A stretch of DNA of 64,000 nt from the NCBI RefSeq assembly GCF_021284745.1, contig NZ_CP089925.1, positions 2,417,001 to 2,481,000 on the forward strand, read 5' to 3'. This document shows, in pieces, positions 2,335-16,531 of the stretch. A model generated the notes under the pieces. The model was not told the origin of the DNA, ran no database searches, and was given only the letters and a program-made list of their open reading frames with translations. Within the stretch, counting starts at the first letter, position 1, and the number at the start of each line of letters is the position of its first letter. This DNA is from Lysobacter sp. KIS68-7 (GTDB lineage Bacteria; Pseudomonadota; Gammaproteobacteria; Xanthomonadales; Xanthomonadaceae). The position numbers and the translations under genes are program-made.

Positions 2335-3146
2335 AGACGTCGATCCTTGCCATCGCAATGTGGGCCACGGCCTTCCATGCCGGCGCGCAGGAGCACATGC
2401 ACCATGGCATGAAGCCGGCAACAAAGCCTGCCAGCGCCGCCACGCCGGTCCCCGAACTCACCGACACCGATCGCGCAGGCGCACGACCGCCGTCGCACGA
2501 TCACCCTGTCCACGACAACAGCGTGCACAGCTTCGTGCTCTTCAATCGTCTCGAAGCCTTCGATGCCGACAACGGTGCGGGCCAGGCATGGCAGGCCCGC
2601 GCGTGGATCGGCACCGACACCGACAAGCTCTGGCTGCGCAGTGAGGGCGAGCGCGTGGATGCCCGCACGCAGTCTTCCGACCTCGAAGTGCTCTACGGTC
2701 GTCCCGTCGCACGCTGGTGGGATGTCGTCGCCGGCGTGCGCCACGACTTCAAGCCCGGGGCGTCGCAGGACTTCGCGGCGCTCGGGATCGTGGGCATGGC
2801 GCCGTACAAGATCGAGATGGAAGCGACGGCCTACCTCGGCGCATCGGGCCGCACGGCCGCGCGCGTGGAAGCCGAATACGACGCACTGTTCACCAATCGC
2901 CTGATCCTGCAGCCCCTGGTCGAACTCAACTTCAACGGCAAGGACGATCCGCAGCGGCATGTCGGCAGCGGCCTGTCGACGTTGGAAGCAGGCCTGCGCC
3001 TGCGTTACGAGATCGATCGGAAGTTCGCGCCGTACATCGGCGTGGTGTACGAGCGGGCCTACGGCGACACGGCGGACTTCCGGCGATCGGCAGGCGAGGG
3101 CGCCGGCGACACGCGCATCGTGGCGGGCGTCCGCATCTGGTTCTGA
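2331..3146 (+). CDS. copB: CopB outer-membrane copper-resistance protein
   Basis: 271 residues. It has a signal peptide (about residues 1-19), then a short His/Met-rich mature N-terminus (EHMHHGMKP), a linker, and a beta-strand-rich domain ending in RIWF, whose terminal aromatic residue is typical of outer-membrane barrels. CopB proteins work with CopA in periplasmic/outer-membrane copper tolerance. It is shorter than CopB proteins with long Met-rich N-terminal repeats, because that repeat region is small here. The ATGA overlap with copA supports one transcript. Confidence 0.93.
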   Translation: MKTSILAIAMWATAFHAGAQEHMHHGMKPATKPASAATPVPELTDTDRAGARPPSHDHPVHDNSVHSFVLFNRLEAFDADNGAGQAWQARAWIGTDTDKLWLRSEGERVDARTQSSDLEVLYGRPVARWWDVVAGVRHDFKPGASQDFAALGIVGMAPYKIEMEATAYLGASGRTAARVEAEYDALFTNRLILQPLVELNFNGKDDPQRHVGSGLSTLEAGLRLRYEIDRKFAPYIGVVYERAYGDTADFRRSAGEGAGDTRIVAGVRIWF

Positions 3147-3439: not shown

Positions 3440-4219
3440 TCAGCCGGTTGCGCGAAAACGTCGCAGCCACTGCCGCGTGCGCACGCGCAGGGGCATCAGC
3501 GTGTAGCGATAGAGCTTCGACAAGGCGCGCCGCCTGCGCGGAATGCGCCAATCGAAGCCTTGCTCCATCGCGTACTGGCAAGGGTTGCACAGCCCGCACG
3601 GTTGGCCGCCGCGCGGGCTGTGGCAGAACCAGGTCATCTCGAGCAGGTCCGTCCATCCGTTGCGCGCTGCGGCCTCGGACGTCTCCTGCTTCTTCGTCAT
3701 CAAACCCGGCAGCGCGAAGGGGCCGATCACGGTGCGCAGGTCCGCGTCGGGGCAATCCGGGCGCAGGCGCCAGGTGGTGTAGCCCTGCGGGGTGATGGTC
3801 TCGACCACCTCGTCCTTGAGGAAGGTGTATGCGCCGTGCGCGGTCATTTCGATGAGCAACTCGACGCCGTCCAGCCCCTTCTGCTGGCAGTAGCGCGACA
3901 GGAACCCATACTGGTTGCCGAAGCGATGCGTGCTCGCGATGCGATCGAAGGCGCGCTGGATCTCATCGTCGCGCTTGAGGTTCTCCAGGCGCACCAGGTG
4001 CGAGGGCAGCAAAAGCGTGCGCGTGTGCGGAAACCGTTCGGCAAGCGCAGCGCGGATGCGGTCCATCGCGTCGATCTCGCAGGGTGCCGAAGCGCGGGCC
4101 GAATCCACCAGGTAGGTCGGCTCCACGGGCAACCGCTTGTCGAGCAGCAGCTCGAGCAGGCGGTAGGTCGAATCCCATCCGCCGGTCCACAGCAGTTGCA
4201 CGGGGACTTCATTCGCCAT
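3440..4219 (-). CDS. Orphan QueC-like PP-loop ATPase
   Basis: 259 residues. The N-terminus carries WTGGWDSTYRLL (about 11-22), a variant of the SGGxDS pyrophosphate loop of PP-loop ATPases. Near the C-terminus C-x8-C-x2-C-x2-C (CHSPRGGQPCGLCNPC) reproduces the four zinc ligands of QueC, 7-cyano-7-deazaguanine synthase. The rest is divergent, with a basic tail (RRRRALSKLYRY, RTRQWLRRF) that QueC lacks. No queD, queE or queF lies nearby, so it may act on another carboxylate or on a deazapurine outside the tRNA queuosine route. It is divergent from the BASS transporter gene and shares a 156-base upstream region holding a conserved 16-base element. Family assignment is firm at the fold level and weak for substrate. 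Confidence 0.7.
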   Translation of the reverse strand: MANEVPVQLLWTGGWDSTYRLLELLLDKRLPVEPTYLVDSARASAPCEIDAMDRIRAALAERFPHTRTLLLPSHLVRLENLKRDDEIQRAFDRIASTHRFGNQYGFLSRYCQQKGLDGVELLIEMTAHGAYTFLKDEVVETITPQGYTTWRLRPDCPDADLRTVIGPFALPGLMTKKQETSEAAARNGWTDLLEMTWFCHSPRGGQPCGLCNPCQYAMEQGFDWRIPRRRRALSKLYRYTLMPLRVRTRQWLRRFRATG

Positions 4220-4300: not shown

Positions 4301-4316
4301 CTCAGTAGTTTTACCG
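4301..4316 (+). promoter_or_regulatory. Shared 16-base element, copy 1
   Basis: CTCAGTAGTTTTACCG, with inverted-repeat core GTA-n4-TAC. It lies 59 bases before the BASS transporter start and 81 bases before the divergent QueC-like start. Three near copies are at 8337-8352, 10789-10804 and 11288-11303, all upstream of genes flanking the NarL-type two-component system. Candidate binding site for that response regulator (inference). Confidence 0.6.
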
Positions 4317-4363
4317 GGCCGGCGGCCGCAGGTTTTGCTGACGCCGGGTCTGCGTCGAAGCCG

Positions 4364-4369
4364 CACAAT
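4364..4369 (+). promoter_or_regulatory. -10-like hexamer before the BASS transporter
   Basis: CACAAT ends six bases before the ATG at 4376. A start there would give a leaderless message, the same geometry seen before nfuA, cmk and moeB in this window. It lies 47 bases beyond the 16-base element at 4301-4316. Weak match; inference. Confidence 0.3.
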
Positions 4370-4375
4370 CGCGGC

Positions 4376-5242
4376 ATGGACCCCAAGCAGATCGTCCTCC
4401 TCGCGTTCCAGGTCAGCATCGCGGCGACGGTGTTCGGCTTCGGGCTGGCGGCCACGCGCGACGAGTTGATGTTCCTGTGGCGCCGGCCGCAGTTGTTCAT
4501 CCGTTCGCTGATCGCGGTGCTGATCGTCATGCCGGCGTTCGCGATCCTGCTCGTGCGCGTTTTCCACTTCCGTCCCGTCGTCGAAGTCGCGTTGCTTGCG
4601 CTGGCGATCTCGCCGATGCCGCCGTTGCTGCCGCGTCGCATGCACAAGGGCGGCGGCGAAGACGCCTACGGTATTTCCTTGCTGCTGTGGCTGTCGCTGG
4701 TCGCGCTGGTGGCGGTGCCGCTGGCGCGGCTGATCCTGAGCGCGTGGCTGGGGCCGGAAGTCCTGTCGTCCGGGAAGATCGCCAAGGTCCTGTTGCTGAT
4801 GGTGGTGCTGCCGCTGGTGGCGGGCGCATTCCTGCGATCCCGGTGGCCCGCGATCGCCGATCGCATCGATCGGCCCATCAAGTTGGGCGCGATGGTCCTG
4901 CTGGCGATGGCCGTCGTGGTGTTGCTGGCGGTGGCATGGCGCCCAATGTGGAATGCGGTGGGGGACGGCACGATTTTCGCGGTCGTGTTGTTCGTCGTCG
5001 TCGGGCTCGCGGTCGGGCATTTCCTGGGCGGACCGTCGCGCGACACGTCCGTGGTGCTTGCGCTGGCGACCGCATGCCGGCACCCGGTCGTCGCGCTCAC
5101 GATCGCCTCGAGCAGCGCACCCGGCAGCCAGTTCGGCGGCACGATCCTGCTCTACGTCCTGATCGCTTCGCTGGTCGCCACGCCCTACCTGATGTACCAG
5201 CACCGTTGCGAAACGCCGCCGCCGAAACCGAAGGTCGCCTGA
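4376..5242 (+). CDS. BASS-family (bile acid:sodium symporter-like) transporter
   Basis: 288 residues, almost entirely hydrophobic with eight to ten predicted helices. Internal features typical of the Na+-dependent bile-acid/arsenite/pantoate transporter superfamily include the Pro-rich ISPMPPLLPRR turn (about 82-92) and the late ATACRHPVVALTIA crossover motif. Substrate cannot be read from sequence, and members move organic anions with sodium. It is divergent from the QueC-like gene and convergent with the QEGLA protein gene. Its upstream region holds one copy of the shared 16-base element, suggesting control by the local two-component system. Confidence 0.8.
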   Translation: MDPKQIVLLAFQVSIAATVFGFGLAATRDELMFLWRRPQLFIRSLIAVLIVMPAFAILLVRVFHFRPVVEVALLALAISPMPPLLPRRMHKGGGEDAYGISLLLWLSLVALVAVPLARLILSAWLGPEVLSSGKIAKVLLLMVVLPLVAGAFLRSRWPAIADRIDRPIKLGAMVLLAMAVVVLLAVAWRPMWNAVGDGTIFAVVLFVVVGLAVGHFLGGPSRDTSVVLALATACRHPVVALTIASSSAPGSQFGGTILLYVLIASLVATPYLMYQHRCETPPPKPKVA

Positions 5243-5260
5243 TCGGTCGGCAACCGGTGT

Positions 5261-6574
5261 TCACCCAATCCCGGATGCGGCGATCTGCTCGTCCTCGTAA
5301 TCGACGAAGCGGTCCAGGTCGAAGGTATCCAGGCGATAGCGCTGCACCGCGGCCGAGAAGGCCATGATCGACAGCACGCGATCGGGCGAGCGCGCCCACG
5401 GCGGCACGTAGTGCGCCGGCGCGATCAGTCCGCTGTCGCGATACGGCGCCAGGCTCACCACGTCGGCCGTCGTCACGCGTCCGCAGAACAGCAGGCGCAG
5501 CACCTCGCTGCGTCCTTCCTGCAACGCACGACGGATGAAGCAATACACCATGATGACGCCTTCCAGGTACGCGCCGTCCTTGGTGAAGCAGATGCGCCCG
5601 TTGACGTCGCCCCCGCGGAACACGCGCGCGGCGCTGCGATAGCTCTCCACGTCGTTCTGGCCTGCTTCGAGGAACGCGCGGAACACGTCCATGAAGTCCG
5701 CGCCGTCCAGCGCTTCCTTCACGCGGATCACGCGCAAGGCCACGCGACGCAGGCGATTGATGTCGATCGCACCGGTGATGATCTCGGAGAAGGTCGCCAG
5801 GCCCTCCTGGGTGCGGGTGGTGCGCGGCGTGCCGACGCCGAGCGTCTTCAGGTAGGGCTGGTGCTTGCCGTTGAGCAGGGTTGCGGTGTGGATGAAGGCT
5901 TCGTGCTGCACGAGCTGTTCGATGTCCAGCTCGGAGAACATCGCGGTGGAACGGAGGGTGATCTTCTTGCTGCCGGCGGCGGCCTTCGAGGCCAGCGCGG
6001 GATCGAGCACGAGTTCGACCTTGTCGTCGGTGAAGAACGGCTCGATGCGTTCGCGGATGCGTTCGGCGAACTGCGCAGCGGTGAGGTCGCACGGCACTTC
6101 GGGTAACAAGCGCGTGTCGATGAGTTTGTCCGTCGTGTCCAGCATGTCGGCCGCTGCATCGGCCGCGGTGAGGTCGCCCTGCGACTTGTAGAGCGTGTCG
6201 GGGCGGCCGTAGAGCAGGGTGGAGCACTCGGTGAAGCCCGGTTTGCCGATCTGCGTGAGCATCTGCGCGGCGACGCGATAGCTCCACGCGGATTTCCACA
6301 ACCAATGGCCGATCGGATGGCCGCGATCGATCGTCTTCATCAGCGCTTCGAGTGCGGCGATTTCCTCGTCGAGCTTCTGCGGCTGCGTGGGAGGCTTCGG
6401 CATCGCGGGCTTGCCCGCACGCCAGCCTGCGAGGAACTGCGACTCCATGTCCGCCGGCCAGCCGATCGCATCGAGGACCCGGATCTTGCGGCCGAGTTTG
6501 CAGAGTGCTGCGTCCGCTTCCAGCAGTTTGCCGAGTGCAGGATCGTCCGTGGGGGATTTTGCGACTGCGTTCAT
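5261..6574 (-). CDS. QEGLA-motif protein, DUF1704 family (putative HExxxH metallopeptidase)
   Basis: 437 residues from the ATG at 6572-6574. It belongs to the family annotated as 'flavohemoglobin expression-modulating QEGLA motif protein' (TIGR02421/DUF1704). H224-E225-AFI-H229 forms a HExxxH motif and the QEGLA signature supplies Glu257, together a plausible zinc triad. Eukaryotic DUF1704 members (MATCAP proteins) use HExxxH as a metallopeptidase site. No signal peptide is seen, so it is probably cytoplasmic. It starts two bases after aqpZ, so it is the last gene of the operon sphA-like/aqpZ/QEGLA. The open frame continues upstream to 7066 but that part is antisense to aqpZ and is not coding. 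The bacterial substrate is unknown, and the flavohemoglobin link in the family name is not shown here. Confidence 0.85.
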   Translation of the reverse strand: MNAVAKSPTDDPALGKLLEADAALCKLGRKIRVLDAIGWPADMESQFLAGWRAGKPAMPKPPTQPQKLDEEIAALEALMKTIDRGHPIGHWLWKSAWSYRVAAQMLTQIGKPGFTECSTLLYGRPDTLYKSQGDLTAADAAADMLDTTDKLIDTRLLPEVPCDLTAAQFAERIRERIEPFFTDDKVELVLDPALASKAAAGSKKITLRSTAMFSELDIEQLVQHEAFIHTATLLNGKHQPYLKTLGVGTPRTTRTQEGLATFSEIITGAIDINRLRRVALRVIRVKEALDGADFMDVFRAFLEAGQNDVESYRSAARVFRGGDVNGRICFTKDGAYLEGVIMVYCFIRRALQEGRSEVLRLLFCGRVTTADVVSLAPYRDSGLIAPAHYVPPWARSPDRVLSIMAFSAAVQRYRLDTFDLDRFVDYEDEQIAASGIG

Positions 6575-6576
6575 GG

Positions 6577-7287
6577 CTAATCCTGGTGCATCAACCAGCG
6601 ATACAGCGCGCCGCCGATGATGCCGCCGATGATGGGGAACACCCAGAAGAACCAGAGTTGCGCGAGCGGCAAGCCGCCGGTGAACAGCGCCACGCCGGTG
6701 GAGCGCGCCGGGTTCACGGAAGTGTTCGTGATGGGGATGCTGATTAGGTGGATCAGCGTCAGGGCCAGGCCGATGGCCAGCGGTGCCGCGCTTGCGCTGG
6801 CTTTGGGATGCGTGGCGCCCATGATCACGACCAGGAACATCGCGGTCATCGCCACTTCGCTCAGCAACGCGGCCGTCATCGAATAGCCGCCAGGCGACAT
6901 GGGTCCATAGCCGTTGGTGGCGAAGGCACCGGGCACGGTCGTATCCACCACCGTGCCGTTGCCATGCGCCAGTTGCCAGAGCACGAAGCCTGCGAGCACC
7001 GCGCCAAGCGTCTGCGCGACGATGTAGGGCAACAGCCCCGAGGCCGGGAACCGCCCGCCGGCCCACAAGCCGAAACTCACCGCCGGATTGAAGTGCCCGC
7101 CGGAGATGTGCCCGAGCGCATACGCGCCGGTGAGCACCGTGAGGCCGAAGGCGAGGGCGACACCGAGCAGGCCGATGCCGAGCGGATTGCCGTCGCCGCC
7201 GAAGTTGGCGGAGATCACGGCGCTGCCGCAGCCTCCGAGCACGAGCCAGAACGTGCCGATGGTTTCGGCCAGCAATTTCCTGAGCAT
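6577..7287 (-). CDS. aqpZ: Aquaporin Z (AqpZ)
   Basis: 236 residues with six transmembrane helices and the two pore half-helices HFNPAVS (about 66-72) and NPARS (about 189-193). The asparagines of these NPA boxes line the water pore. Length and the [14 protein letters not shown] start match AqpZ water channels rather than the glycerol facilitator GlpF, which has a larger, D-containing second box. It sits in the inner membrane. It follows the outer-membrane transporter gene by 28 bases and precedes the QEGLA gene by two bases, so it is the middle gene of an operon. Expression is probably set by the element at 8337-8352. Confidence 0.96.
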
Positions 7288-7315
7288 GGGTGGTCCCTCC
7301 GTAGCAATTGCGACG

Positions 7316-8257
7316 TCAGAAGCTGACCGTGCCGGTCACCATGACCGGATTGCCTTCGATGCGATTCTTGACGTCGAACTCGTGCAGCCAGCGCGCGGAA
7401 AACTCGACCTTGCCGGTCTTGTAGGTCGCGATCGGGCCGATCGAGAGCGAGTGTCCCTTGAAGCCATTGAGGCGATCCGCCGTCGGGCCGGTGTCGTCTT
7501 CGAGCTGCTGGATCCAGCCGCCCGCTGCGCCGAAGCCCCAGCCGCTGGCCGTGCGTTTGATCAGCAATGCATCGATGCGGAACACCGCGCCATTCTGATA
7601 GTCGGTGGCGTGGTTCTCCGTGTAGAAGTCCACCGCCGCGAGCGTGCTGAACTCGAGCGTGCCGCCCTGGCCGAGCTGCGTGTAGCCCACGGTCGGTGAA
7701 TACGTCCAGTTGTTGAGGCTCACGTTGGCGAGCTTGTCGGGGTCGTAGCTGCCGCTCGGCGTGTAGATGTAGAGCGCGAGCGACATGTGTTTCGTCTGGC
7801 TGAAGTGCCGGCTGGCGATGATCGGCACCACGGCGATGTCGAACGGGCCGGTGTCGCTGTCGCTGGTGGATGCGCCGAAGCGGCCGAGGCGGATGTCGGC
7901 GTCGACGTCGACCTTCGCGAAGGGCACTGCGATCGCGGACGCGTAGTTCCAACGCCCTTCGCCCGTGGGCCACACATACATGCCGGTGAAGGAGAGCAAC
8001 TGGAACTGCGCATCCAGGCCCACCGCCGTGCTTCCGCCGATGGGCACCTCGCGTTGCGCGCCGATGTGGCCGGAGTAGTAGATGTACTGGGTGAGCAGGT
8101 TGAATCCCGGCGTCGGCGGAACCACGCCCGCGAACGAAGTCCCTTGGAGTCCGGTGATCGGGCGACCGAGCGCGCCTTCCGTGGCGTGCGCGGACAGGCT
8201 TGCCGCGCCGAGCGCGAGTGCGGTGCAGAGAGGGAGGCAACGCGCCAGCAGCGGCAT
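7316..8257 (-). CDS. Outer-membrane transporter, SphA/phenol meta-pathway family
   Basis: 313 residues with a signal peptide (cleavage near residue 25, after SLSAHA) and alternating beta-strand pattern ending in VTGTVSF, a C-terminal Phe typical of outer-membrane barrels. The sequence resembles the 'MetA-pathway of phenol degradation' transporter family (PF13557), including the early [21 protein letters not shown] pattern. Such proteins are thought to pass hydrophobic or aromatic compounds. No aromatic-degradation enzymes are near, so the substrate is open. It is the first gene of an operon with aqpZ and the QEGLA gene. The shared 16-base element lies 79 bases upstream, overlapping the end of the kinase gene. 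Confidence 0.82.
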
Positions 8258-8336
8258 CGGTCGGTTCCGGCGACGACGGGGGTCCTATCCTCCGCATCCC
8301 TGCGCCGCATCCCACCCCGACTTCTACGCAGCGGGC

Positions 8337-8352
8337 CTCAGTACTTCTACCG
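8337..8352 (-). promoter_or_regulatory. Shared 16-base element, copy 2
   Basis: CTCAGTACTTCTACCG on the plus strand, 79 bases upstream of the outer-membrane transporter start at 8257 and overlapping the last codons of the kinase gene (stop at 8347-8349). A second ACTTCTAC half lies 23 bases away (8320-8327), about two helical turns, possibly a tandem half-site. Identical to copy 1 at 14 of 16 positions. Confidence 0.6.
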
Positions 8353-9915
8353 AGGCGAGGGCTGCACCTTCGCCCCGACGGGGAAGCGCACCTCCACCCG
8401 CGTACCGCCCTGTGCCACGCGGGCGAACTCGAGCTGGCCCCGCAGCGTCTTCACGCGTTCGGCCATGCTGATCATGCCCAGGCCGCCATGGCGGGCCGAG
8501 GCGTAGTCCGCCGGCAGGCCGCGGCCATCGTCTTCGATGCGCAGCAATGCGACTTCGCCGTCGCGCCGCAGGGCGATGTTCACGCACGAGGCCTCCGCGT
8601 GTTTCTCCGCGTTGTGCAGCGCCTCCTGCGCGATGCGGAACAGGTCGAGCTTCTGCTGCTCCGACAGCGCGAAAGTCTCCTCGGTCTCGCAGCGCACCTG
8701 CAGTTCCTCGCGCGAATGGCTCGCGCACAAGGCTTCCAGCGAAGCGGCCAGGCTGGTGTAGCGCAGCATGCTCGGGTGCAATTCGTGCGAGAGCCGGCGG
8801 ATGTCGTCGGACACGCCGAGCAGGTGTTCCTGCAAGGCCTCGATGCGCGCGCGGCCGTTGGCATCGACGCTGCGCTTCAGGCCGCTCAGCTCGATCGAGA
8901 GCGAGGCCAGGGATTGGTTCACGTCGTCGTGCAGGTCGCGCGCGATGCGGCTGCGCTCGTTCTCCTGCATGGTCATCACGCGTCGTGCGAGTTGGCCCAG
9001 GCGTTCGTAGGAATCGCGCAGCGCATCGTGTGCGAGGCCGCGCTGTTCGCGCAGCGTGGTGAGCAGGAGCAGCACGACGCTGGTGCCGATGGCCCACCAC
9101 TGCAGGTGCACGATCGTGGCGCGCACGCTGTCGTGCACGAGCGGCCCGGTGCCGAGCGTGCTCAGCCACAGGCAGGCGATGCAGGCGATGGACCAGACCA
9201 CCCAGCTCCATGCGCTGCCCAAGGCATGGTTGGTCCAGATCAGCAACACGATGGGAGCGACCGCCAGCAAAGGCGCAATGTCGGTGCGCCCGAGCGGCGA
9301 CATCCACACGACGACGAGCGCGAAGACTCCGAAGGCCGCCATCGCCGACGGCATGCGGGCGGTCGCATGCGTGCGTCCATGGAGCAGGCGCATCACGCCG
9401 ACGAACGTGGGCACGAGCAGCATGTAGGCGAGGCTGCGCGCGAGTGCCATCTGCACCCAGTCCGAACGTGGCGAGGGAATGCCGAACTGGTTCGACGCCG
9501 CGACACTCCACGCCGCGCCCAGCAAAGGCAACGCCATCCCCGCGACCAGCACGAAGCGCGCGGGATTGCATTCGCGCGATTCGTGGATGGGGATGTTCTG
9601 CTTCGGATGCACGGCAAGCGCTGCGACCGCAACGAGCGCGAACTCGCCGGCGAGCCGGACGCAGTAGGGCAGCAAGTCGCGGCCCATCGACGCGCACACG
9701 AGCGCGCTACCGAGCAACGCACCGGCGCAGCACGCAGCCCAACGCGACCGCGGGCTGGCGAGCAAGCCGCACATCAGGATCGCGCCCGGCCACCACGCGA
9801 TCTGTGCGAAGAACGTGGCCGTCCAGGGATCGACGGTCAGTCCCTGGCCCAACGCCGTCGCGACGAGGAGCGTCGCGGGTACGACCCAGGCGGCCTGCAC
9901 GGGTTCATGGTCCAT
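8347..9915 (-). CDS. Membrane sensor histidine kinase, NarX/UhpB type (HisKA_3)
   Basis: 522 residues. About residues 8-285 hold eight or so hydrophobic helices resembling a MASE1-type integral membrane sensor. A HisKA_3 dimerisation domain follows with ERSRIARDLHDDVNQSL and phosphoacceptor His329, then HATPase_c with N-box Asn435 (EALHNAEKHA), DDGRGLP at 462-468 and GGLGM at 477-481. This kinase class partners with NarL/FixJ response regulators, and one is encoded divergently 186 bases away. AAGGA stands seven bases before the start. The sensed signal is unknown. The stop overlaps the 16-base element that probably controls the next minus-strand operon. Confidence 0.93.
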   Translation of the reverse strand: MDHEPVQAAWVVPATLLVATALGQGLTVDPWTATFFAQIAWWPGAILMCGLLASPRSRWAACCAGALLGSALVCASMGRDLLPYCVRLAGEFALVAVAALAVHPKQNIPIHESRECNPARFVLVAGMALPLLGAAWSVAASNQFGIPSPRSDWVQMALARSLAYMLLVPTFVGVMRLLHGRTHATARMPSAMAAFGVFALVVVWMSPLGRTDIAPLLAVAPIVLLIWTNHALGSAWSWVVWSIACIACLWLSTLGTGPLVHDSVRATIVHLQWWAIGTSVVLLLLTTLREQRGLAHDALRDSYERLGQLARRVMTMQENERSRIARDLHDDVNQSLASLSIELSGLKRSVDANGRARIEALQEHLLGVSDDIRRLSHELHPSMLRYTSLAASLEALCASHSREELQVRCETEETFALSEQQKLDLFRIAQEALHNAEKHAEASCVNIALRRDGEVALLRIEDDGRGLPADYASARHGGLGMISMAERVKTLRGQLEFARVAQGGTRVEVRFPVGAKVQPSPR

Positions 9916-9955
9916 GGCAGAGTCCTTTGCGCGTTGACGTCGGGTTTACAGCGCG

Positions 9956-9970
9956 TGCACAACACGTGCA
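9956..9970. promoter_or_regulatory. Inverted repeat in the kinase/regulator divergent region
   Basis: TGCAC-n5-GTGCA lies between the kinase and the NarL-type regulator. A second small inverted repeat, GCCGA-n3-TCGGC, is at 9988-10000. TTGACG at 9934-9939 could be a -35 box for the regulator. The 186-base region lacks a clear copy of the 16-base element found in front of the other local genes. Low-confidence operator candidate. Confidence 0.3.
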
Positions 9971-10101
9971 AGGGCCGTTGGATGACAGCCGACAATCGGC
10001 GCATTCACCCCGTGACCAGTATTCGCGCTCGTGAAACCTCACTTTTTCGTCACCATGGATGAACACGCTCCACGCCAGCCTCACGTTTCGGAGGGGACTG
10101 C

Positions 10102-10770
10102 ATGGCGATGATCGCAAGCAACAGCGGCACATCACCCGAACGGGCGCGCCTGTTGCTCGCCGACGATCACGTGCTGGTGGCACAGGGCCTGGAGCGCCTG
10201 TTGCTCGAGTGCTTCTGCCGGATCGACACGGTGCGTTCGGGCGAAGCGATCATCGAAGCGGTGGAACGCGATCCGCCGGACATCGTCGTCGCCGACATCA
10301 GCATGGAAGGGATGAGCGGCGTGGACGCCATGCGCGTGCTGCGCGAGCGCGGGATCGACACTCCGTTCCTGTTCCTCACCATGCACGCCGATCCCGAACT
10401 CGCCGCCGAAGCGATCCAGGCCGGGGCGAGCGGTTACGTGATCAAGGCATCGGCGGGCGACGAACTGGTGCGCGCGATCCTGGAAGTGCTGGCGGGCCGC
10501 ACCTACGTGACGCCGACACTGGCCGCACGCACGATCCGTGCCGGTGCCGAGCGCTCTGGCAACGGACTGACGCAGAAGCAGCGCGAGATCCTCGTCCGCG
10601 TGGCGCAGGGGCTGCGCTCGAAGCAGATCGCCTACGAGCTCGGCCTGTCTGTGCGTACCGTCGAGTCGCACAAGTACACGATCATGCAGGAGCTCGGCGT
10701 GCACAGTACGGTGGAGCTCGTGCGCAAGGCCGCGCAGGCGGGCCTGATCGCGATCGACGTCCCCCACTGA
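10102..10770 (+). CDS. NarL/FixJ-type response regulator
   Basis: 222 residues. The receiver domain has acidic pocket residues D21-D22, phosphoacceptor Asp65 (VVADISMEGMSG), the LTMHAD switch strand and Lys of YVIKAS. A LuxR-type helix-turn-helix follows at about 155-215 (LTQKQREILVRVAQGL, then SVRTVESHKYTIMQELGV). It is divergent from the histidine kinase and is its likely partner. GAGGGG stands five bases before the ATG, and a second in-frame ATG two codons on is also well placed. It is the best candidate for binding the GTA-n4-TAC element upstream of four nearby transcription units. Confidence 0.95.
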   Translation: MAMIASNSGTSPERARLLLADDHVLVAQGLERLLLECFCRIDTVRSGEAIIEAVERDPPDIVVADISMEGMSGVDAMRVLRERGIDTPFLFLTMHADPELAAEAIQAGASGYVIKASAGDELVRAILEVLAGRTYVTPTLAARTIRAGAERSGNGLTQKQREILVRVAQGLRSKQIAYELGLSVRTVESHKYTIMQELGVHSTVELVRKAAQAGLIAIDVPH

Positions 10771-10788
10771 GGCGTCTACTGGCATCGG

Positions 10789-10804
10789 CCACGTAGTTTT
10801 ACTT
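10789..10804 (+). promoter_or_regulatory. Shared 16-base element, copy 3 (weaker)
   Basis: CCACGTAGTTTTACTT keeps the core GTAGTTTTAC exactly as in copy 1 but diverges in the flanks. It is 75 bases before the receiver-only regulator gene. A -10-like GCTAGT at 10854-10859 lies 49 bases beyond it, a spacing close to copy 1. Confidence 0.5.
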
Positions 10805-10879
10805 CCCTGCCTCCAGTTGTTTTGCGATAGCAGCGCGGTGAAGGCGCGCTCACGCTAGTGGCGTGAACGAGGTTCCGCC

Positions 10880-11293
10880 ATGAACCGCGCAAGGGTGCTG
10901 CTGGCCGAGGACAGCCCGGTGGTGGCGCGTCAGTTGCGCTCACTGCTGGGCCAGGACTTCGAAGTGCTGGCGATGGTGACCGACGGGGCGTCGATCCCGA
11001 CGGCCGTGGATGCGTTGCAGCCGGACGTGCTGGTCACCGACATCTCGATGCCGGGCATGGATGGGCTGCGCGCGGCTGAGCTCGTCCTGCGCCAATACCC
11101 GGACCTGCGGGTCGTCTTCATCACGGTCCATTCCGACGCCGACCTCGTCGCGCGGGCCCGCGCGCTCACGCGCACGGCTTACGTGCTCAAGTCCGATGCG
11201 GGTGATGACCTGGTAGCGGCGGTGGAGGCGGTGATGGGCGGTCGCTGGTTCGTGTCCGCCTCGCTGGCCAGGGCGACGGTGCGGGGACAGTAG
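10880..11293 (+). CDS. Receiver-only response regulator
   Basis: 137 residues forming one CheY-like receiver: E10-D11 pocket, phosphoacceptor Asp54 (LVTDISMPGMDG), the VFITVHSD switch strand and the Lys of VLKSD. The C-terminal GRWFVSASLARATV matches the linker that precedes the helix-turn-helix in NarL proteins, yet the frame stops there and no DNA-binding domain follows in any frame before the next gene. It may be a truncated NarL protein now acting as a phosphate sink or partner for the neighbouring kinase. It has its own upstream element at 10789-10804 and an AACGAGG ribosome site. Confidence 0.88.
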   Translation: MNRARVLLAEDSPVVARQLRSLLGQDFEVLAMVTDGASIPTAVDALQPDVLVTDISMPGMDGLRAAELVLRQYPDLRVVFITVHSDADLVARARALTRTAYVLKSDAGDDLVAAVEAVMGGRWFVSASLARATVRGQ

Positions 11294-11303
11294 AAATACT
11301 GAG
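11288..11303 (-). promoter_or_regulatory. Shared 16-base element, copy 4
   Basis: Read on the minus strand this is CTCAGTATTTCTACTG. It overlaps the stop codon of the receiver-only gene and is 56 bases before the DUF202 gene that opens the eight-gene operon. Orientation relative to the gene it precedes is the same as for copy 2. Confidence 0.6.
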
Positions 11304-11359
11304 CGGCGGCGCGTGGAATCGCGGATGCGCGGCCGGTGGGGCACGGCGATGCTCGGCGC

Positions 11360-11833
11360 ATGAGCGCGCAACTTCCCCCGAGCGGCCAATTCCCCACCGC
11401 CGACGACAAATCCGTCGAGCTGTCTTCGCGCCGGACCGGCATGAGTTTCCAGCGCACGCGCATGAGCGCCGAGCGCACGCTGATGTCGGTGATCCGCACG
11501 TCGCTGTCGCTGATCAGCTTCGGCTTCACGATCTACCAGGTGTTCAACAACGCGCTGAAGGTCCAGGGCGTCACCTTGTCGGCCCATGCGCCGCGCAACT
11601 TCGGCATGGCGCTGGTCGCGCTCGGCATCCTGATGCTGTTCTTCGGCATGGTCTACCACATGCGCTTCATGATGCAGCTGCGCAGCGAGCGGGCGACGAT
11701 GAAGGGCGAAGGCCTGATCCATGCACAAAGTGCATACCCGCTGTCGCTCACGCTGGTCACCGCCGTGGTCCTGTTCTTCATCGGACTGGCGGCCTTCGCC
11801 AGCATGGTCTTCGACATCACCCCGAAGCTCTGA
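11360..11833 (+). CDS. DUF202 (YidH-like) inner-membrane protein
   Basis: 157 residues from the ATG at 11360; a GTG at 11336 in frame is less likely because it would enter the promoter zone. A polar N-terminus (about 45 residues) with repeated Arg-Thr-x-Met-Ser units is followed by the DUF202 core (ERTLMSVIRTSLSLISFGFTIYQ) and three hydrophobic helices. DUF202/YidH proteins are small inner-membrane proteins of unknown activity. It is the first gene of an operon running to 16408, and a second DUF202 gene lies at 13719. The gap to the next gene is 21 bases. Confidence 0.85.
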   Translation: MSAQLPPSGQFPTADDKSVELSSRRTGMSFQRTRMSAERTLMSVIRTSLSLISFGFTIYQVFNNALKVQGVTLSAHAPRNFGMALVALGILMLFFGMVYHMRFMMQLRSERATMKGEGLIHAQSAYPLSLTLVTAVVLFFIGLAAFASMVFDITPKL

Positions 11834-11854
11834 ACCCACGAGACGAGGCTTTCC

Positions 11855-12406
11855 ATGAAAACGCTCGCATTGCTGCTCGCAACCGGCTTCGTGCTCGCCG
11901 GCTGTGCCTCGACGCCCGATGTCACCGTCGACCACGATCCGTCGGCCAACTTCGCGGTCTTCAAGACGTACTACTGGGCACAGGAACCGCAATCGAAGAA
12001 CCCGCTCGCCAACCAACGCCTCGTCGCCGGCATCGACCAACGGTTGGCCGCGCGCGGCTGGACGCGCAGCACGGAAGGCAACAGCGACGTTGCGATCGTG
12101 GCGAACGTCGCGTCCAGTGAGCGGCAGACGCTGGACACGATGTACACCGGCACCGGCATGGGCGGATGGGGCTGGGGCCCCGGATGGGGCTACGGCGGCA
12201 TGGCCACTTCGACCACGCGCGTGAACACCTACACGGTCGGCACGCTCGTGCTCGACATGTTCGACGCGAAGACGAAGAAGGCCATCTGGCGCGGCACCGC
12301 CAGCGGCACCGTGCCCGATTCGCCTGAAAAGACCGCGACTGCGGTGCAGGCTGCACTCGACAAGATGTTCGCGGACTTCCCGCCCGGATCGGCGCCCGCG
12401 AAATGA
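11855..12406 (+). CDS. DUF4136 lipoprotein
   Basis: 183 residues with a lipobox signal (TGFVLAGC, lipidated Cys19) and a DUF4136 domain: FAVFKTYYW at the start, a central Gly/Trp/Tyr-rich loop (GWGWGPGWGYGG), and VLDMFDAKTKKAIWRGTASG toward the end. Members are envelope lipoproteins of unknown role, often encoded with stress or envelope genes. The residue after Cys is Ala, so outer-membrane sorting is likely if the Lol +2 rule applies. It overlaps the FGE gene by four bases (ATGA). Confidence 0.88.
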   Translation: MKTLALLLATGFVLAGCASTPDVTVDHDPSANFAVFKTYYWAQEPQSKNPLANQRLVAGIDQRLAARGWTRSTEGNSDVAIVANVASSERQTLDTMYTGTGMGGWGWGPGWGYGGMATSTTRVNTYTVGTLVLDMFDAKTKKAIWRGTASGTVPDSPEKTATAVQAALDKMFADFPPGSAPAK

Positions 12407-13362
12407 GTGCGCTGCTGGAAACCACGGATACGCCCGTCGCGCGCGAAGGCATGGTGTGGATCCCCGGCCGCACCTTCCGCATGGGATCGGACGATCACTA
12501 TCCGGAAGAGGCGCCGACGCATCGCGTGGCGGTCGATGGGTTCTTCATGGACACCACGCCGGTGACCAATGCGCAGTTCCGCGCGTTCGTCGAAGCGACC
12601 GGGCACGTGACGATGGCGGAGATCCCGCCGAAGGCCGAGGACTATCCGGGTGCGCTGCCCGGGATGCTCGTCGCCGCGTCCGTCGTGTTCGTGCCGCCGC
12701 CGCATCGCGTGGCCTTGAACGACCACTATCGGTGGTGGCAGTTCCTTGCCGGCGCGGATTGGCGTCATCCGCAAGGGCCTGGCAGTTCGATCGAGGGCAA
12801 GGACGACCATCCCGTCGTGCATGTCGCCGCGCGCGATGTCGAAGCCTATGCCGCATGGGTGGGCAAGGCCTTGCCCACCGAAGCCGAATGGGAACTCGCT
12901 GCGCGCGGCGGACTGGAAGGCACCGAGTTCGCGTGGGGCGAGGAGTTCGCGCCGCAAGGCCTGCATCGCGCGAACACGTGGCAAGGCGAATTCCCCTGGC
13001 AGAACCTCGCCCAGGACGGCTACATCGGCACCTCGCCTGTCGCGACGTATCCGCCGAACGCCTACGGCCTGCTCGACATGATCGGCAACACGTGGGAGTG
13101 GACGGCGGACTGGTATCGCCCGCGCCATCCGGCCGAAGCCGTGAAGGCATGCTGCATTCCAGAAAATCCGCGCGGCGGGCCGGAGAACGAAAGCTTCGAT
13201 CCCGCGCAGCAGCAGATCCGCATTCCGCGACGGGTGATGAAGGGCGGCTCGCATTTGTGCGCACCGAACTATTGCCGACGCTATCGCCCGGCGGCGCGCA
13301 TGGCGCAGCCGATCGATACTTCCACTTCGCACCTCGGATTCCGGTGCGTCGTGCGCACCTGA
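12403..13362 (+). CDS. Formylglycine-generating enzyme (SUMF1/FGE family)
   Basis: 319 residues without a signal peptide. The FGE-sulfatase fold is visible from MVWIPGRTFRMGSDDHYPEEAP (split by conserved Gly) through TEAEWELAARGG and NTWEWTADWY to the C-terminal GGSHLCAPNYCRRYR...HLGFRC. Cys286 and Cys291, spaced C-x4-C, correspond to the two catalytic, copper-binding cysteines of true FGEs, which oxidise the sulfatase CxPxR cysteine to formylglycine using oxygen. That makes it catalytically complete, unlike many FGE-like proteins (EgtB, PvdO). No sulfatase gene is nearby. It overlaps the DUF4136 gene by four bases and precedes DUF1622 by nine. Confidence 0.93.
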   Translation: MSALLETTDTPVAREGMVWIPGRTFRMGSDDHYPEEAPTHRVAVDGFFMDTTPVTNAQFRAFVEATGHVTMAEIPPKAEDYPGALPGMLVAASVVFVPPPHRVALNDHYRWWQFLAGADWRHPQGPGSSIEGKDDHPVVHVAARDVEAYAAWVGKALPTEAEWELAARGGLEGTEFAWGEEFAPQGLHRANTWQGEFPWQNLAQDGYIGTSPVATYPPNAYGLLDMIGNTWEWTADWYRPRHPAEAVKACCIPENPRGGPENESFDPAQQQIRIPRRVMKGGSHLCAPNYCRRYRPAARMAQPIDTSTSHLGFRCVVRT

Positions 13363-13371
13363 CGCACCGCC

Positions 13372-13722
13372 ATGGAAGAACTCTTCCGCACCGTCAGCCA
13401 GGCGATCGCCCTTGGCCTGGAAGCCGTCTCGGTCCTGATGATCGCGATCGGCGCCGTGCTGGCACTCGGCCAGATCGTGATGCCCTTGCTGCGCAACGCC
13501 GCGACGCAGGGCATCCGGCGTGCGGCATGGCTGAGCCTGGCGCGATGGTTGCTGCTCGGCCTCGAGTTCATGCTCGCCGCGGACATCGTGCGCACCGCCA
13601 TCGCGCCCAACTGGGACGACATCGGGATGCTCGCCGCGATCGCGGTGATCCGCACCTTCCTCAACTTCTTCCTCGAACGCGACCTCGACGCGGCCGAGGC
13701 AATGAACGAGCCGGTGAAATGA
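13372..13722 (+). CDS. DUF1622 inner-membrane protein
   Basis: 116 residues with three hydrophobic helices and the DUF1622 pattern: LEAVSVLMIAIGAVLALG, then RWLLLGLEFMLAADIVRTAIAPNW split around the conserved Glu, and AVIRTFLNFFLERDL at the C-terminus. The family has no known function. It lies in the middle of the operon, nine bases after the FGE gene and overlapping the next DUF202 gene by four bases, so translation of the two is coupled. Confidence 0.87.
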   Translation: MEELFRTVSQAIALGLEAVSVLMIAIGAVLALGQIVMPLLRNAATQGIRRAAWLSLARWLLLGLEFMLAADIVRTAIAPNWDDIGMLAAIAVIRTFLNFFLERDLDAAEAMNEPVK

Positions 13723-14129
13723 ACACGACACCGCCGCCGAACTCCACCGACCTGGCCGTCAAGCGCACCGGCCTGGCCGACCTGCGCTCGCACCTGGCGA
13801 ACGAGCGCACCCACCTGGCGTATTTGCGCACCTGCGTGTCGTTGGTAGGTTTCGGCATCACGCTCAATCGCTTCGCGGTTTACTTGCGCGAACACGACCA
13901 ACTGGGCGCCACGACATCGCGGCGCCTGTTGCACAACACGGAAAACGTCGGCGCCGGCATGATCGTGCTCGGCCTGGCCCTCGCGGTGTGGTCGCTGTAC
14001 CGCTACTGGCACGTCAACGCCGACATCAAGAACGCCAGCTTCCGTCCGATGGATCGCGCGGTGGAGGGCATCACGTTGTTGTTCATCCTGATCGGCGGCG
14101 TCACGGCGGCGTGGTTGATCTTCCTCTGA
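13719..14129 (+). CDS. Second DUF202 (YidH-like) inner-membrane protein
   Basis: 136 residues. The soluble N-terminus leads into LANERTHLAYLRTCVSLVGFGIT, a good DUF202 match, followed by three hydrophobic segments (about 36-56, 76-98, 112-134). It is the second DUF202 protein in the operon and is only distantly similar to the one at 11360, so the two may form a heteromer; that is a guess. The start ATG overlaps the DUF1622 stop (ATGA). A 49-base gap with AGGTTC before the next ATG follows. Confidence 0.87.
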   Translation: MNTTPPPNSTDLAVKRTGLADLRSHLANERTHLAYLRTCVSLVGFGITLNRFAVYLREHDQLGATTSRRLLHNTENVGAGMIVLGLALAVWSLYRYWHVNADIKNASFRPMDRAVEGITLLFILIGGVTAAWLIFL

Positions 14130-14178
14130 CTCTCTTGAAACAACGCACGGCAGCAGCAACTGAAAGCACGGAGGTTCT

Positions 14179-14943
14179 ATGCAACGCATCCACGTGGTCA
14201 TCGCGACGGGCCTGTTGTGCCTCGTCGCCCCGGCCTTCGCCCAGGATGCCGGCCCCACACCGCCTGCGGTCGATCCGCAGGCGATGCAGGCGCTGGATCG
14301 GATGGGCAAGGCACTGCGCGGGTTGTCGCAGTTCGAAGTGACGGCCGATTCCACCAGCGAAGTCGTGCTGGAGGATGGCCGCAAGATCGAACTCGGCGGC
14401 ACCGTCGATTACAAGGTGCGGCGCCCGAACGGCTTGTTCGCCAAGCTCAAGAGCGACCGGCGCGATCGCGAGTTCTACTACGACGGCAAGACGCTGACGA
14501 TTTATTCGCCGTCCACGCAGTTCTACGCCACGCTGCCCGCGCCCGACACCATCGGCGGACTGGTGCAGAAAGCGCAGGACGACTACGGGCTGGAGATGCC
14601 GCTCGCCGATCTGTTCTGGTGGGGCACGGAGAAGGCGCCGAAGACGGAGATCAAGAGCGCGACCTATGTCGGGCCTGCGTTCCTGCATGGCGAGCCCGTG
14701 GCGCAATACGTGTTCCGGCAGGGCGACGTCGACTGGCAGGTGTGGCTCGACAAGCAGGACATGCCGCGCAAGCTGGTGATCGTCGACAACACCGCGAGCG
14801 AACGGCCGGAATTCACCGCGACGCTCGATTGGAAGCCGACGGCGACCTTCGCCGACGATACGTTCGCGTTCAAGCCGTCGAACGACGCCTACGAAATCCT
14901 GTTCTTCCCGGGCACGCTGGTCGCGCAGGAGGGCACGAAATGA
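14179..14943 (+). CDS. DUF2092 secreted protein
   Basis: 254 residues with a signal peptide (cleavage near residue 21, after PAFA). The body matches DUF2092: LRGLSQFEVTADST, DGRKIELGGTVDYKVRRPN, FYYDGKTLTIYSP and a run of antiparallel strands ending DTFAFKPSNDAYEILF. The predicted fold resembles the lipoprotein carriers LolA/LolB, so a periplasmic hydrophobic-ligand role is possible but untested. It overlaps the next gene by four bases (ATGA). Confidence 0.87.
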   Translation: MQRIHVVIATGLLCLVAPAFAQDAGPTPPAVDPQAMQALDRMGKALRGLSQFEVTADSTSEVVLEDGRKIELGGTVDYKVRRPNGLFAKLKSDRRDREFYYDGKTLTIYSPSTQFYATLPAPDTIGGLVQKAQDDYGLEMPLADLFWWGTEKAPKTEIKSATYVGPAFLHGEPVAQYVFRQGDVDWQVWLDKQDMPRKLVIVDNTASERPEFTATLDWKPTATFADDTFAFKPSNDAYEILFFPGTLVAQEGTK

Positions 14944-15491
14944 ACACCATCCGACTCATCACGCCATTGGCTTGTGCGGCGCTGGTCGCATGCTTCGGCC
15001 TGGCCTCATCGTTCGACGTCGACGCGCAGCGCGCACGCGGCGGTGGTGGTGCGCGTGCACCTTCCAGCGTGGGACATGGCGGAGGCGGCGCACACGCTGG
15101 CGGCGCACGTGCGGGTGGCGGCCAGGCGGTCAACCATCCGCAGAACCACGGGGGCGGCAACCGCAACACCGCCAACGTCAACCGCAACACGACGAACGTC
15201 CACAACACCAACGTCAACCGGAACACCAACGTCAACGTCAACCGCGACATCAACGTCGACGTCGACAACGGCTGGGACAACCACTTCGACCATCCGGTGG
15301 CGGCCGCGGCCGCGATCGGCACGGCCGCCGCCGTGACCGCGGCGGCGATCGGCTCGATCGTGTATTCGGTGCCACCGAGCTGCGTGACCACGGTGGTCAA
15401 CGGCATCGCGTACCAGCAATGCGGTTCGACGTGGTACCAGCCGCAGTACGCGGGTTCGTCGGTGCAGTACGTGGTCGTTGCGCAACCGTGA
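14940..15491 (+). CDS. Secreted Asn/Val-repeat protein of unknown function
   Basis: 183 residues. A signal or anchor segment occupies about 1-29, then a Gly/His/Ala-rich region (about 30-70), then roughly 40 residues of alternating Asn-rich dipeptide repeats (NVNRNT, NVHNTNVN, NVNVNRD), an acidic DVDVDNGWDNHFDHP patch, a small-residue hydrophobic segment (about 119-140), and a C-terminal CVTTVVNGIAYQQCGSTWYQP with two Cys that could pair. The repeat pattern looks like short beta-solenoid or amyloid-type strands. It overlaps the DUF2092 gene by four bases and ends two bases before the HAD gene. I do not recognise a named family. Confidence 0.7.
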   Translation: MNTIRLITPLACAALVACFGLASSFDVDAQRARGGGGARAPSSVGHGGGGAHAGGARAGGGQAVNHPQNHGGGNRNTANVNRNTTNVHNTNVNRNTNVNVNRDINVDVDNGWDNHFDHPVAAAAAIGTAAAVTAAAIGSIVYSVPPSCVTTVVNGIAYQQCGSTWYQPQYAGSSVQYVVVAQP

Positions 15492-15493
15492 CG

Positions 15494-16408
15494 ATGGCGC
15501 TGGGTGACACCTGGCGCGAGGGCCCGGCGAAACAGGCGATCGTGGCGTTCGTCGAACGCACCACGACGCCGGGTTCGCCGGACTTCATCGCGCCGGCGGA
15601 CCGCATCGCCGTGTTCGACAACGACGGCACGCTTTGGTCCGAGCAGCCGTTGTATTTCCAGTTCCTGTTCGCGCTGGATCGCGTGCGCGCACTTGCGCCG
15701 CAGCATCCGGAGTGGACGCACACCGAGCCCTTCCGCTTCGTGCTCGAAGGACATCCGGAGAAGGCGCTCGCCGGTGGGGCGGATTCGCTGCTGCCGATCG
15801 TGGAGGCGACCCACGCCGGCATGACCACCGAACAGTTCGCGCAGATCGTGCGCGACTGGATGGCCACCGCGCGCCATCCGACCAAGCATCGCCGCTACGA
15901 TTCGATGGTGTTCGCGCCGATGCTGGCGCTGATGCAGTACCTGCGCGCGAACGGTTACGGCACCTGGATCGTGTCGGGCGGCGGCCAGGAGTTCCTGCGT
16001 GCATGGGTGGAAGGCATCTACGGCATTCCGCCGCAGCAGGTGATCGGCAGCTACGCGGGACTCAAGTACGCGCCGGGCGATACGCCGACGATCCTGAAGA
16101 CCTCGCAACCCGAGCTTGTCGACGACCACGCGGGCAAGCCCGTCGGTATCCAGAGGTTCCTCGGGCGGCGGCCGGTGATGGCCTTCGGCAACTCCGACGG
16201 CGATTTCGAGATGCTCGAGTGGACGACGTCGGGGCGGGGGCCGCGCTTCGCGGCCATCCTGCACCACACCGACGCCGAGCGTGAGTTCGCCTACGACAAG
16301 GGGGCGCCAGCGGGTGCACTGGAGCGCGCGCTCGCGGAAGCACCGGCACGCAAGTGGGTGGTGATCGACATGGCGCGCGATTGGGGGACGGTCTACCCGT
16401 CGCACTGA
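15494..16408 (+). CDS. HAD-superfamily hydrolase
   Basis: 304 residues from ATG at 15494; an in-frame GTG at 15488 is an alternative. HAD motif I is DNDGTLW with Asp42 and Asp44, motif II the Ser of WIVSGGGQEF, and the late acidic motif GNSDGDFEM. The helical cap between motifs I and II makes it a class I phosphatase-like HAD. No signal peptide is seen, although it ends an operon rich in exported proteins. The substrate is unknown. It is the last gene of the eight-gene operon, and a 123-base gap follows before the GacA-like regulator. Confidence 0.88.
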   Translation: MALGDTWREGPAKQAIVAFVERTTTPGSPDFIAPADRIAVFDNDGTLWSEQPLYFQFLFALDRVRALAPQHPEWTHTEPFRFVLEGHPEKALAGGADSLLPIVEATHAGMTTEQFAQIVRDWMATARHPTKHRRYDSMVFAPMLALMQYLRANGYGTWIVSGGGQEFLRAWVEGIYGIPPQQVIGSYAGLKYAPGDTPTILKTSQPELVDDHAGKPVGIQRFLGRRPVMAFGNSDGDFEMLEWTTSGRGPRFAAILHHTDAEREFAYDKGAPAGALERALAEAPARKWVVIDMARDWGTVYPSH

Positions 16409-16531
16409 ACGCAGACGTTTCGACCCCGAATCGGCGACGCGCCTTTCCGGCGAATGCTGACGCGGTTCGCAGGCCCGTTTCCGCGCGTGCCCTTAGGCTT
16501 GCGGGACACGCAAGGAAACGGAGGATCAGGG

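Follow-up and report, generated by a model that had tools for sequence, protein, structure and literature searches.

In the 64-kb stretch of the 3.25-Mb genome of Lysobacter sp. KIS68-7 analyzed here (the window), four copies of a short palindromic element, CTCRGTA-N4-TACYGAG, precede four transcription units located around genes encoding a sensor histidine kinase and a NarL/FixJ-type response regulator. These copies are part of a genome-wide control system of Lysobacter-like soil bacteria that very probably activates genes encoding sulfatases, the formylglycine-generating enzyme (FGE) and protein families of unknown function. Furthermore, there is good reason to believe that this kinase and the regulator encoded at 10102-10770, perhaps tuned by a receiver-only protein, activate a regulon of sulfatase, FGE and DUF1254 genes. 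Neither the motif nor the gene set was found to be described in the searched literature, which left most subscription journals outside its coverage.

The palindromic element in the window and in related genomes

Searching both strands of the window for the core GTANTTYTAC yielded exactly four matches, compared to a mean of 0.01 and a maximum of one in 100 shuffled sequences. The original prediction had named these four copies and no others, as well as a distance of 56-79 bp to the first gene of each unit, and proved right in this. It had further described a 16-base element containing an inverted repeat of GTA and TAC. The corresponding 16-mer CTCAGTANTTYTACYG (CTCAGTAnTTyTACyG) is matched without mismatches by three of the four copies, and the fourth (10789, CCACGTAGTTTTACTT) fits the core only. 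The core was thus correctly recognized, but the real element is longer, with arms of 7 bases on either side of a 4-base centre. Since it is palindromic, little significance attaches to the strand on which a copy lies.

For genome-wide counts, the same pattern read backwards served as control. When at most two mismatches were allowed, the palindrome containing an A/T centre (CTCRGTANWWNTACYGAG) gave 8, 9, 7, 4 and 3 sites in the congeneric genomes G000-G004 (five genomes, referred to as the genus), compared to 1, 2, 1, 0 and 0 sites for the reversed pattern. One site per congener (5 of 31) was discarded as a coding hit within secY, so that 7, 8, 6, 3 and 2 sites remain. This near-perfect palindrome (CTCGGTAARTTCACCGAG or close) is kept in secY of all five congeners (in G000 at 1617627) and is a coding coincidence according to the promoter score introduced below. 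Sites L120 (G001 277048), L245 and L246 were likewise discarded, as they lie inside called genes. Two other patterns were rejected, namely the short core as a genome-wide marker (26 genome matches compared to 33 for the control) and an extended pattern without the A/T centre allowing three mismatches, which returned noise (96 compared to 140). The earlier statement that the copies are not due to chance therefore holds for the cluster in the window but does not extend to the short core, which is not enriched genome-wide.

Loci of relatives were located by aligning the regulator, and 42 loci of named Lysobacterales were used; the closest relatives among named records in this alignment were Lysobacter lactosilyticus, L. 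dokdonensis and L. gilvus. In a pattern-free search of the intergenic DNA of these loci for any 5+5 inverted repeat with a spacer of 0-16, CAGTA-N4-TACTG was the top dyad (18 of 42 loci), compared to 12-16 loci for the best dyad in each of 20 shuffles. Moreover, GTA-Nk-TAC was counted 149 times at k=4, as against 1-19 times at each of 16 other spacings. The peak at spacing 4 was observed in the genus (12; other spacings 0-2), in Stenotrophomonas and allies (41; 0-8), in the Lysobacter soli group (15; 0-3) and in Dyella, Luteibacter and Rhodanobacter (79; 0-12). The single L. selenitireducens locus showed no such peak (2; others 0-3).

Enrichment upstream of orthologous genes in this genome and its relatives, proposed originally as a check, was found: the element recurs at the same promoters around most kinase/regulator loci. 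The position of site 4 is widely conserved, with 28 of 43 sources having a site before the receiver-only gene. Site 2 is kept before the same gene in loci L124-L126, where site 3 is also conserved. Two results weigh on the other side. The site upstream of the BASS transporter gene is the weakest case, the three closest named relatives having a neighbouring site before another gene, and scanning around the kinase gene revealed no element near it in genomes G025 and G014. Additionally, paired sites were observed in other genera: two sites 28 bp apart lie between divergent genes in Luteibacter (L142 1798 and 1826; L175 1704 and 1732), and eight Dyella loci contain pairs 49-50 bp apart (e.g., L145 3130 and 3180), which suggests double-headed regulatory regions.

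Genes preceded by the element

Targets were evaluated starting from the genes, as this removes selection bias. All matches to the sulfatase family PF00884 (28, E<=1e-10) and to the DUF1254 family PF06863 (23, E<=1e-5) in the five congeners were considered. GTA-NWWN-TAC was present within 400 bp upstream of 18/28 PF00884 and 17/23 DUF1254 genes, and each of 12 other spacings gave 0 or 1. By inspection, 23 of the 28 PF00884 genes carry the formylglycine signature C-x-[PA]-x-R, and the element is present at 18 of these 23, compared to none of the five lacking the signature (p=0.0026). In the window, the element precedes five of 59 genes, all of them at the four reported sites.

Outside the window, three G000 sites (2346028, 668373, 2097204) precede DUF1254/DUF1214 genes. 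Further G000 sites stand before a gene for an outer-membrane protein followed by a sulfatase gene (2981923), before the gene of a 796-aa sulfatase (3167039) and before that of a glycine-zipper protein (314545); the site at 303336 received no support from the promoter score. Sites of the relatives add further sulfatases and DUF1254 genes as well as DUF3300, DUF3604 and PAP2 proteins, the DUF3604 site being devoid of the second promoter element described below.

Seven genomes outside the genus that encode the kinase (carriers) were also analyzed, with loci for 30 of their 46 PF00884 matches. Six of 14 genes with the strict signature, which misses some variants, have a site, two of them sharing one divergent site, and none of the 16 others has one. 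In 18 genomes outside the carrier set (loci for 30 of 41 PF00884 matches), a site was found at none of the 30 genes, seven of which have the strict signature. Furthermore, all 22 listed non-local sites in Stenotrophomonas and Dyella carriers were examined, and the nearest gene within 350 bp downstream encodes a sulfatase or DUF1254 protein at seven of them.

Some of these results weigh against the target assignment. When at most four flank mismatches are allowed, the counts in the genus decrease to 14/28 PF00884 and 13/23 DUF1254 genes, and no site within 400 bp was found at 5/23 formylglycine sulfatases and 6/23 DUF1254 genes. Among the seven carriers outside the genus, only 6 of the 30 PF00884 genes have a site. 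Of the 22 non-local sites, the remaining 15 are followed by different genes or by no called gene, and two of these 15 lie inside genes.

The candidate regulator and the promoter layout

Near full-length orthologues of the kinase were identified in 13 of 148 other genomes searched (149 genomes in all; E<=1e-34, 29-62% identity), and 12 of these 13, i.e., all but G014, also encode a regulator orthologue of at least 47% identity. Statistics on carriers were limited to family f1 (89 of the 149 genomes), because the other families of the order had high control counts (up to 48) and were uninformative. In this family, 12 carriers comprise 55 sites compared to 11 control sites, as opposed to 34 compared to 70 in the 77 other members (Mann-Whitney p=1.8e-6; 0.001 without the genus). 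The exact sequence CAGTANWWNTACTG occurs at 3, 4, 5, 5, 2, 6, 2, 4 and 1 sites in the nine searched genomes whose best regulator match reaches at least 60% identity (control 0 or 1) and is absent in six other searched genomes, namely G025 (58%), G075 (47%), G014 (37%), G074, G048 and G080. Two Dyella carriers possess nine sites of the Dyella variant each (control 2), one of the nine being inside a gene in either genome, and 0, 1, 1, 0, 1 and 0 such sites were counted in six of their relatives without the kinase/regulator pair.

The motif also goes with a helix-turn-helix (HTH) of the type 'GLRSKQ...SVRTVE[SA]HKY..MQ...VH(S/G)T'. At ten loci of distant phyla with regulators devoid of the GLRSKQ...H(S/G)T HTH, spacing 4 showed no excess (5; others 2-6). 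Both the co-occurrence and the HTH subtype point to the regulator encoded at 10102 as the binder, in support of the originally proposed regulon of the local NarL-type regulator, for which we infer binding to the element. Additionally, spacing 4 was the commonest one, with a weak excess (45 compared to 14-31), at Vibrio and Thalassotalea loci (L182-L188; sites such as ATCAGTAAAATTACTGAT), whose regulators share mainly the HTH and which perhaps represent a distant relative of the system.

It is unlikely, though not negligibly so, that the element, although real, is recognized by a different protein, such as the GacA/UvrY-like LuxR-type regulator encoded at 16454-17182 or one encoded elsewhere, and that the local system is merely one of the targets of this protein. 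The GacA/UvrY-like regulator is encoded 5 kb away and also has a GerE HTH. Moreover, the receiver-only gene and the kinase/regulator region of Dyella carry sites, so that these are at least targets. Other data are likewise unfavourable to the local regulator. No genome-wide excess was observed in carriers G025 and G014, and for G033 and G004 one test gave a small excess only (5 compared to 4 and 2 compared to 1). The locus of G025 (L149) contains two weak local sites and lacks a peak at spacing 4. However, the motif excess follows the kinase/regulator orthologues and is missing from the 77 family members without the kinase, and the motif follows the HTH subtype of the 10102 regulator. Near clusters outside the nearest relatives, tblastn with the GacA-like query retrieved matches of 26-39% identity lying on other regulators, while the motif persists there.

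In order to describe the promoters, 114 non-redundant sites (of 132) were oriented by downstream sequence alone. A second, degenerate element GT..WW.TTC occupies positions +17 to +27 relative to the site centre; further downstream, there are a TTG-like -35 element (+30 to +32) and a weak -10-like box of the type nAnnnT (about +54 to +59). This layout contains 10.4 bits of information between +12 and +66, compared to 2.0-2.3 bits in six sets drawn at random from this DNA, and its direction is that of the only neighbouring gene start at 60 of 71 testable sites. Two main distances between start codon and centre were observed, 85-94 bp at 30 sites and 65-69 bp at 8 sites. The short-distance class comprises the BASS and DUF202 genes of the window and receiver-only and DUF202 genes of the three named relatives; it leaves no room for a leader, so the respective mRNAs may be leaderless. 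The position of the -10-like box at site 1 likewise implies that the BASS mRNA may be leaderless. The first gene of the eight-gene operon downstream of site 3 most likely starts at ATG 11360 instead of GTG 11336, and this ATG fits a predicted leaderless start.

A composite promoter model trained outside the window and the three named relatives gave, in the direction of the gene, p=0.014 for the BASS site, 0.005 for the outer-membrane protein site, 0.00005 for the receiver-only site and 0.0002 for the DUF202 operon site; the corresponding values for the other direction were 0.73, 0.40, 0.027 and 0.39. Taken alone, the -10 part of site 4 is weak (p=0.20). Several points weaken this description. 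The orientation procedure could overfit, although the random sets are about five times lower, and the gene starts used are calls made in this analysis. The second element is lacking at G000 303336, L115 and L118 and also at five DUF1254 sites located 63-67 bp from the start, including L111 and L112. The -10-like box is weak overall, and no clear one was found at site 2 (-10 part p=0.40).

The layout is also relevant for the mode of control. Orientation-free palindromes can serve a repressor as well as an activator, and the regulator might bind as a repressor that is lifted on phosphorylation. This is quite improbable, however, as the site lies far upstream at a fixed distance from the start codons and before poor -35/-10-like elements, which is the usual layout of activated promoters, and overlap with the core promoter would be usual for a repressor site. 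That the four copies in one region are mere look-alikes, due to chance or to common descent of DNA without function, is favoured by the missing genome-wide enrichment of the short core alone but is extremely improbable, because sites are found again at unrelated promoters of several genera and both the spacing test and the target-gene test argue decisively against it.

Genes of the cluster and proposed function

Coordinates of the genes and sites in the window are compiled in Table 1.

Table 1. Genes and regulatory sites of the cluster (window positions; ~ approximate).
Feature	Position	Strand	Evidence or remarks
BASS/SBF-type transporter, target 1	4376..5242	+	PF01758, E=1.3e-13
Target operon 2	5261..8257	-	three genes; Pfam, gene calling
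Outer-membrane protein (Phenol_MetA_deg)	7316-8257	-	Pfam; target operon 2
Aquaporin	6577-7287	-	Pfam; target operon 2
DUF1704/QEGLA (Pfam MATCAP) peptidase-like protein	5261-6574	-	target operon 2; NCBIfam QEGLA 262 bits, below cut-off 339
Sensor histidine kinase	8347..9915	-	multi-helix membrane part (MASE1-like), HisKA_3, HATPase_c
NarL/FixJ-type response regulator	10102..10770	+	receiver PF00072, GerE HTH PF00196
Receiver-only protein, target 3	10880..11293	+	PF00072 only
Target operon 4	11360..16408	+	eight genes; Pfam, gene calling; DUF202, DUF4136, FGE, DUF1622, DUF202, DUF2092, protein without Pfam match, HAD phosphatase
FGE	12403-13362		target operon 4
Protein without Pfam match	~15069-15491		target operon 4
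Site 1	4301..4318	+	CTCAGTAGTTTTACCGGG; 1 mismatch to palindrome; upstream of BASS; core 4305-4314 (+); -10-like CACAAT ~4364-4369
Site 2	8337..8354	-	CTCGGTAGAAGTACTGAG read towards gene; 0 mismatches; core 8341-8350 (+); second element ~8328-8312
Site 3	11286..11303	+	GACAGTAGAAATACTGAG; 2 mismatches; core 11290-11299 (-); second element ~11312-11328; -10-like GATGCT ~11348-11353
Site 4	10789..10806	+	CCACGTAGTTTTACTTCC; weak flanks, intact core only; core 10793-10802 (+); second element ~10815-10831; -10-like CACGCT ~10851-10856

The FGE encoded in the window matches solved FGEs over the whole fold (E=1.2e-71 to 5ssx) with both active-site cysteines aligned ('gshlcapnycrryr' of the query with 'gsymchrsycyryr' of 5ssx). 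Judged by its sequence, it is a genuine aerobic FGE. Based on this similarity and on both cysteines, the enzyme and its sulfatase substrates share the element.

The histidine H329 of the kinase (H-box histidine) is invariant in 8/8 orthologues, all of which also possess HisKA_3. MASE1 was detected in 5/8 orthologues at E<=1 (best 5.8e-12) and is weak in the window protein (E=0.51; 9.8 compared to 29.8 bits). The structure model of the kinase (mean predicted local distance difference test score 73.9, predicted template modelling score 0.55) was too uncertain for a fold search. The regulator shows the features of the NarL/FixJ type, i.e., a GerE HTH preceded by a receiver that has the acidic pair, the phospho-acceptor Asp, the Thr/Ser and the Lys, and its residues D21, D22, D65, T93 and K115 are invariant in 12 aligned sequences. 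In Dyella, a second regulator of 42-43% identity adjoins the first one (L094 7776-8396; L095 10962-11609) and has motif sites in its promoter region; it is possibly a paralogous branch. The receiver-only protein, which is 70% identical in two congeners, keeps the residues of a phosphorylatable receiver (three sequences) and is possibly a phosphate sink or feedback partner.

Further genes were observed next to the cluster. The gene encoding the GacA/UvrY-like regulator (195.6 bits, cut-off 280) directly follows the eight-gene operon and is possibly co-transcribed with it. A multicopper oxidase and CopB pair (copper resistance; window 571-3146) adjoins the cluster. Two congeners (L085, L087) have this pair beside the cluster as well, and in L091 it lies at a greater distance. 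The 570 bases of the window preceding the pair contain no match to the core. Moreover, a gene at 3440-4219, divergent from BASS, encodes a 259-aa protein without Pfam match. In L225 and L227, paralogues of this protein (44-46% identity) are encoded beside the regulon's alcohol dehydrogenase and sulfatase genes.

Based on these results, an activation mechanism is proposed. The MASE1-like histidine kinase (8347-9915) would phosphorylate the NarL-type regulator (10102-10770), a dimer of which would bind the palindrome centred about 66 bp upstream of the presumed transcription start. The second, degenerate copy about 23 bp downstream, beside the poor -35 element, would enable the regulator to bring RNA polymerase to a weak promoter that is sigma70-like. 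Predicted targets encode outer-membrane proteins, small membrane proteins, formylglycine (type I) sulfatases, FGE, DUF1254/DUF1214 proteins and the receiver-only protein, and the latter may withdraw phosphoryl groups or exert feedback on their flow. As the signal, organic compounds that are sulfated or membrane-active would be suitable.

Among known systems, UhpB-UhpA is similar in combining a membrane sensor, which may be MASE1-like here too, with HisKA_3 and HATPase_c domains and a NarL/FixJ-type regulator. However, the UhpB and UhpA models match at 125.7 and 101.2 bits only, far below their cut-offs of 408 and 258, no UhpC- or UhpT-like gene was found among the scanned neighbours, and a receiver-only partner is added here. 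The UhpB-UhpA system targets a sugar-phosphate transporter, in contrast to the sulfatases, FGE and DUF1254 proteins in the present case. Best NCBIfam hits of kinase and regulator were MctS and MctR (146.8 and 147 bits), again far below the cut-offs (700 and 300), and the function of MctSR, concerning a monocarboxylate transporter, does not match the targets. Two inverted half-sites ending ...GTA / TAC... also occur in LuxR boxes and in operators of other GerE-domain regulators. The spacing here is 7-4-7 with an A/T centre, compared to 7-6-7 in a LuxR box; the heptamers recognized by NarL have the opposite orientation and are separated by 2 bp. Dedicated control of sulfatase genes has likewise been described, exerted by LysR-type sulfur-status regulators or by glycan-sensing hybrid kinases and extracytoplasmic function sigma factors. 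To our knowledge, none of the described systems places FGE together with its substrates and DUF1254 under the control of a single NarL-type regulator, and the literature searched contained no such case.

The findings provide a defined cis-element together with a candidate regulator and regulon, all directly testable, and predict leaderless transcripts at some promoters of the regulon. FGE would be tied to its substrates by shared control. Furthermore, DUF1254/DUF1214, DUF202, DUF1622, DUF2092 and DUF3300 would be placed in one process with sulfatases, which offers a starting point for elucidating their function. More tentatively, the system may be dedicated to sulfatase maturation, with FGE, most sulfatases, outer-membrane ports and the DUF1254, DUF1214, DUF202, DUF1622 and DUF4136 proteins being made together for one process and BASS possibly acting as co-sensor of the kinase. 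If this were true, these DUF families would act in the uptake and desulfation of sulfated organics at the cell envelope.

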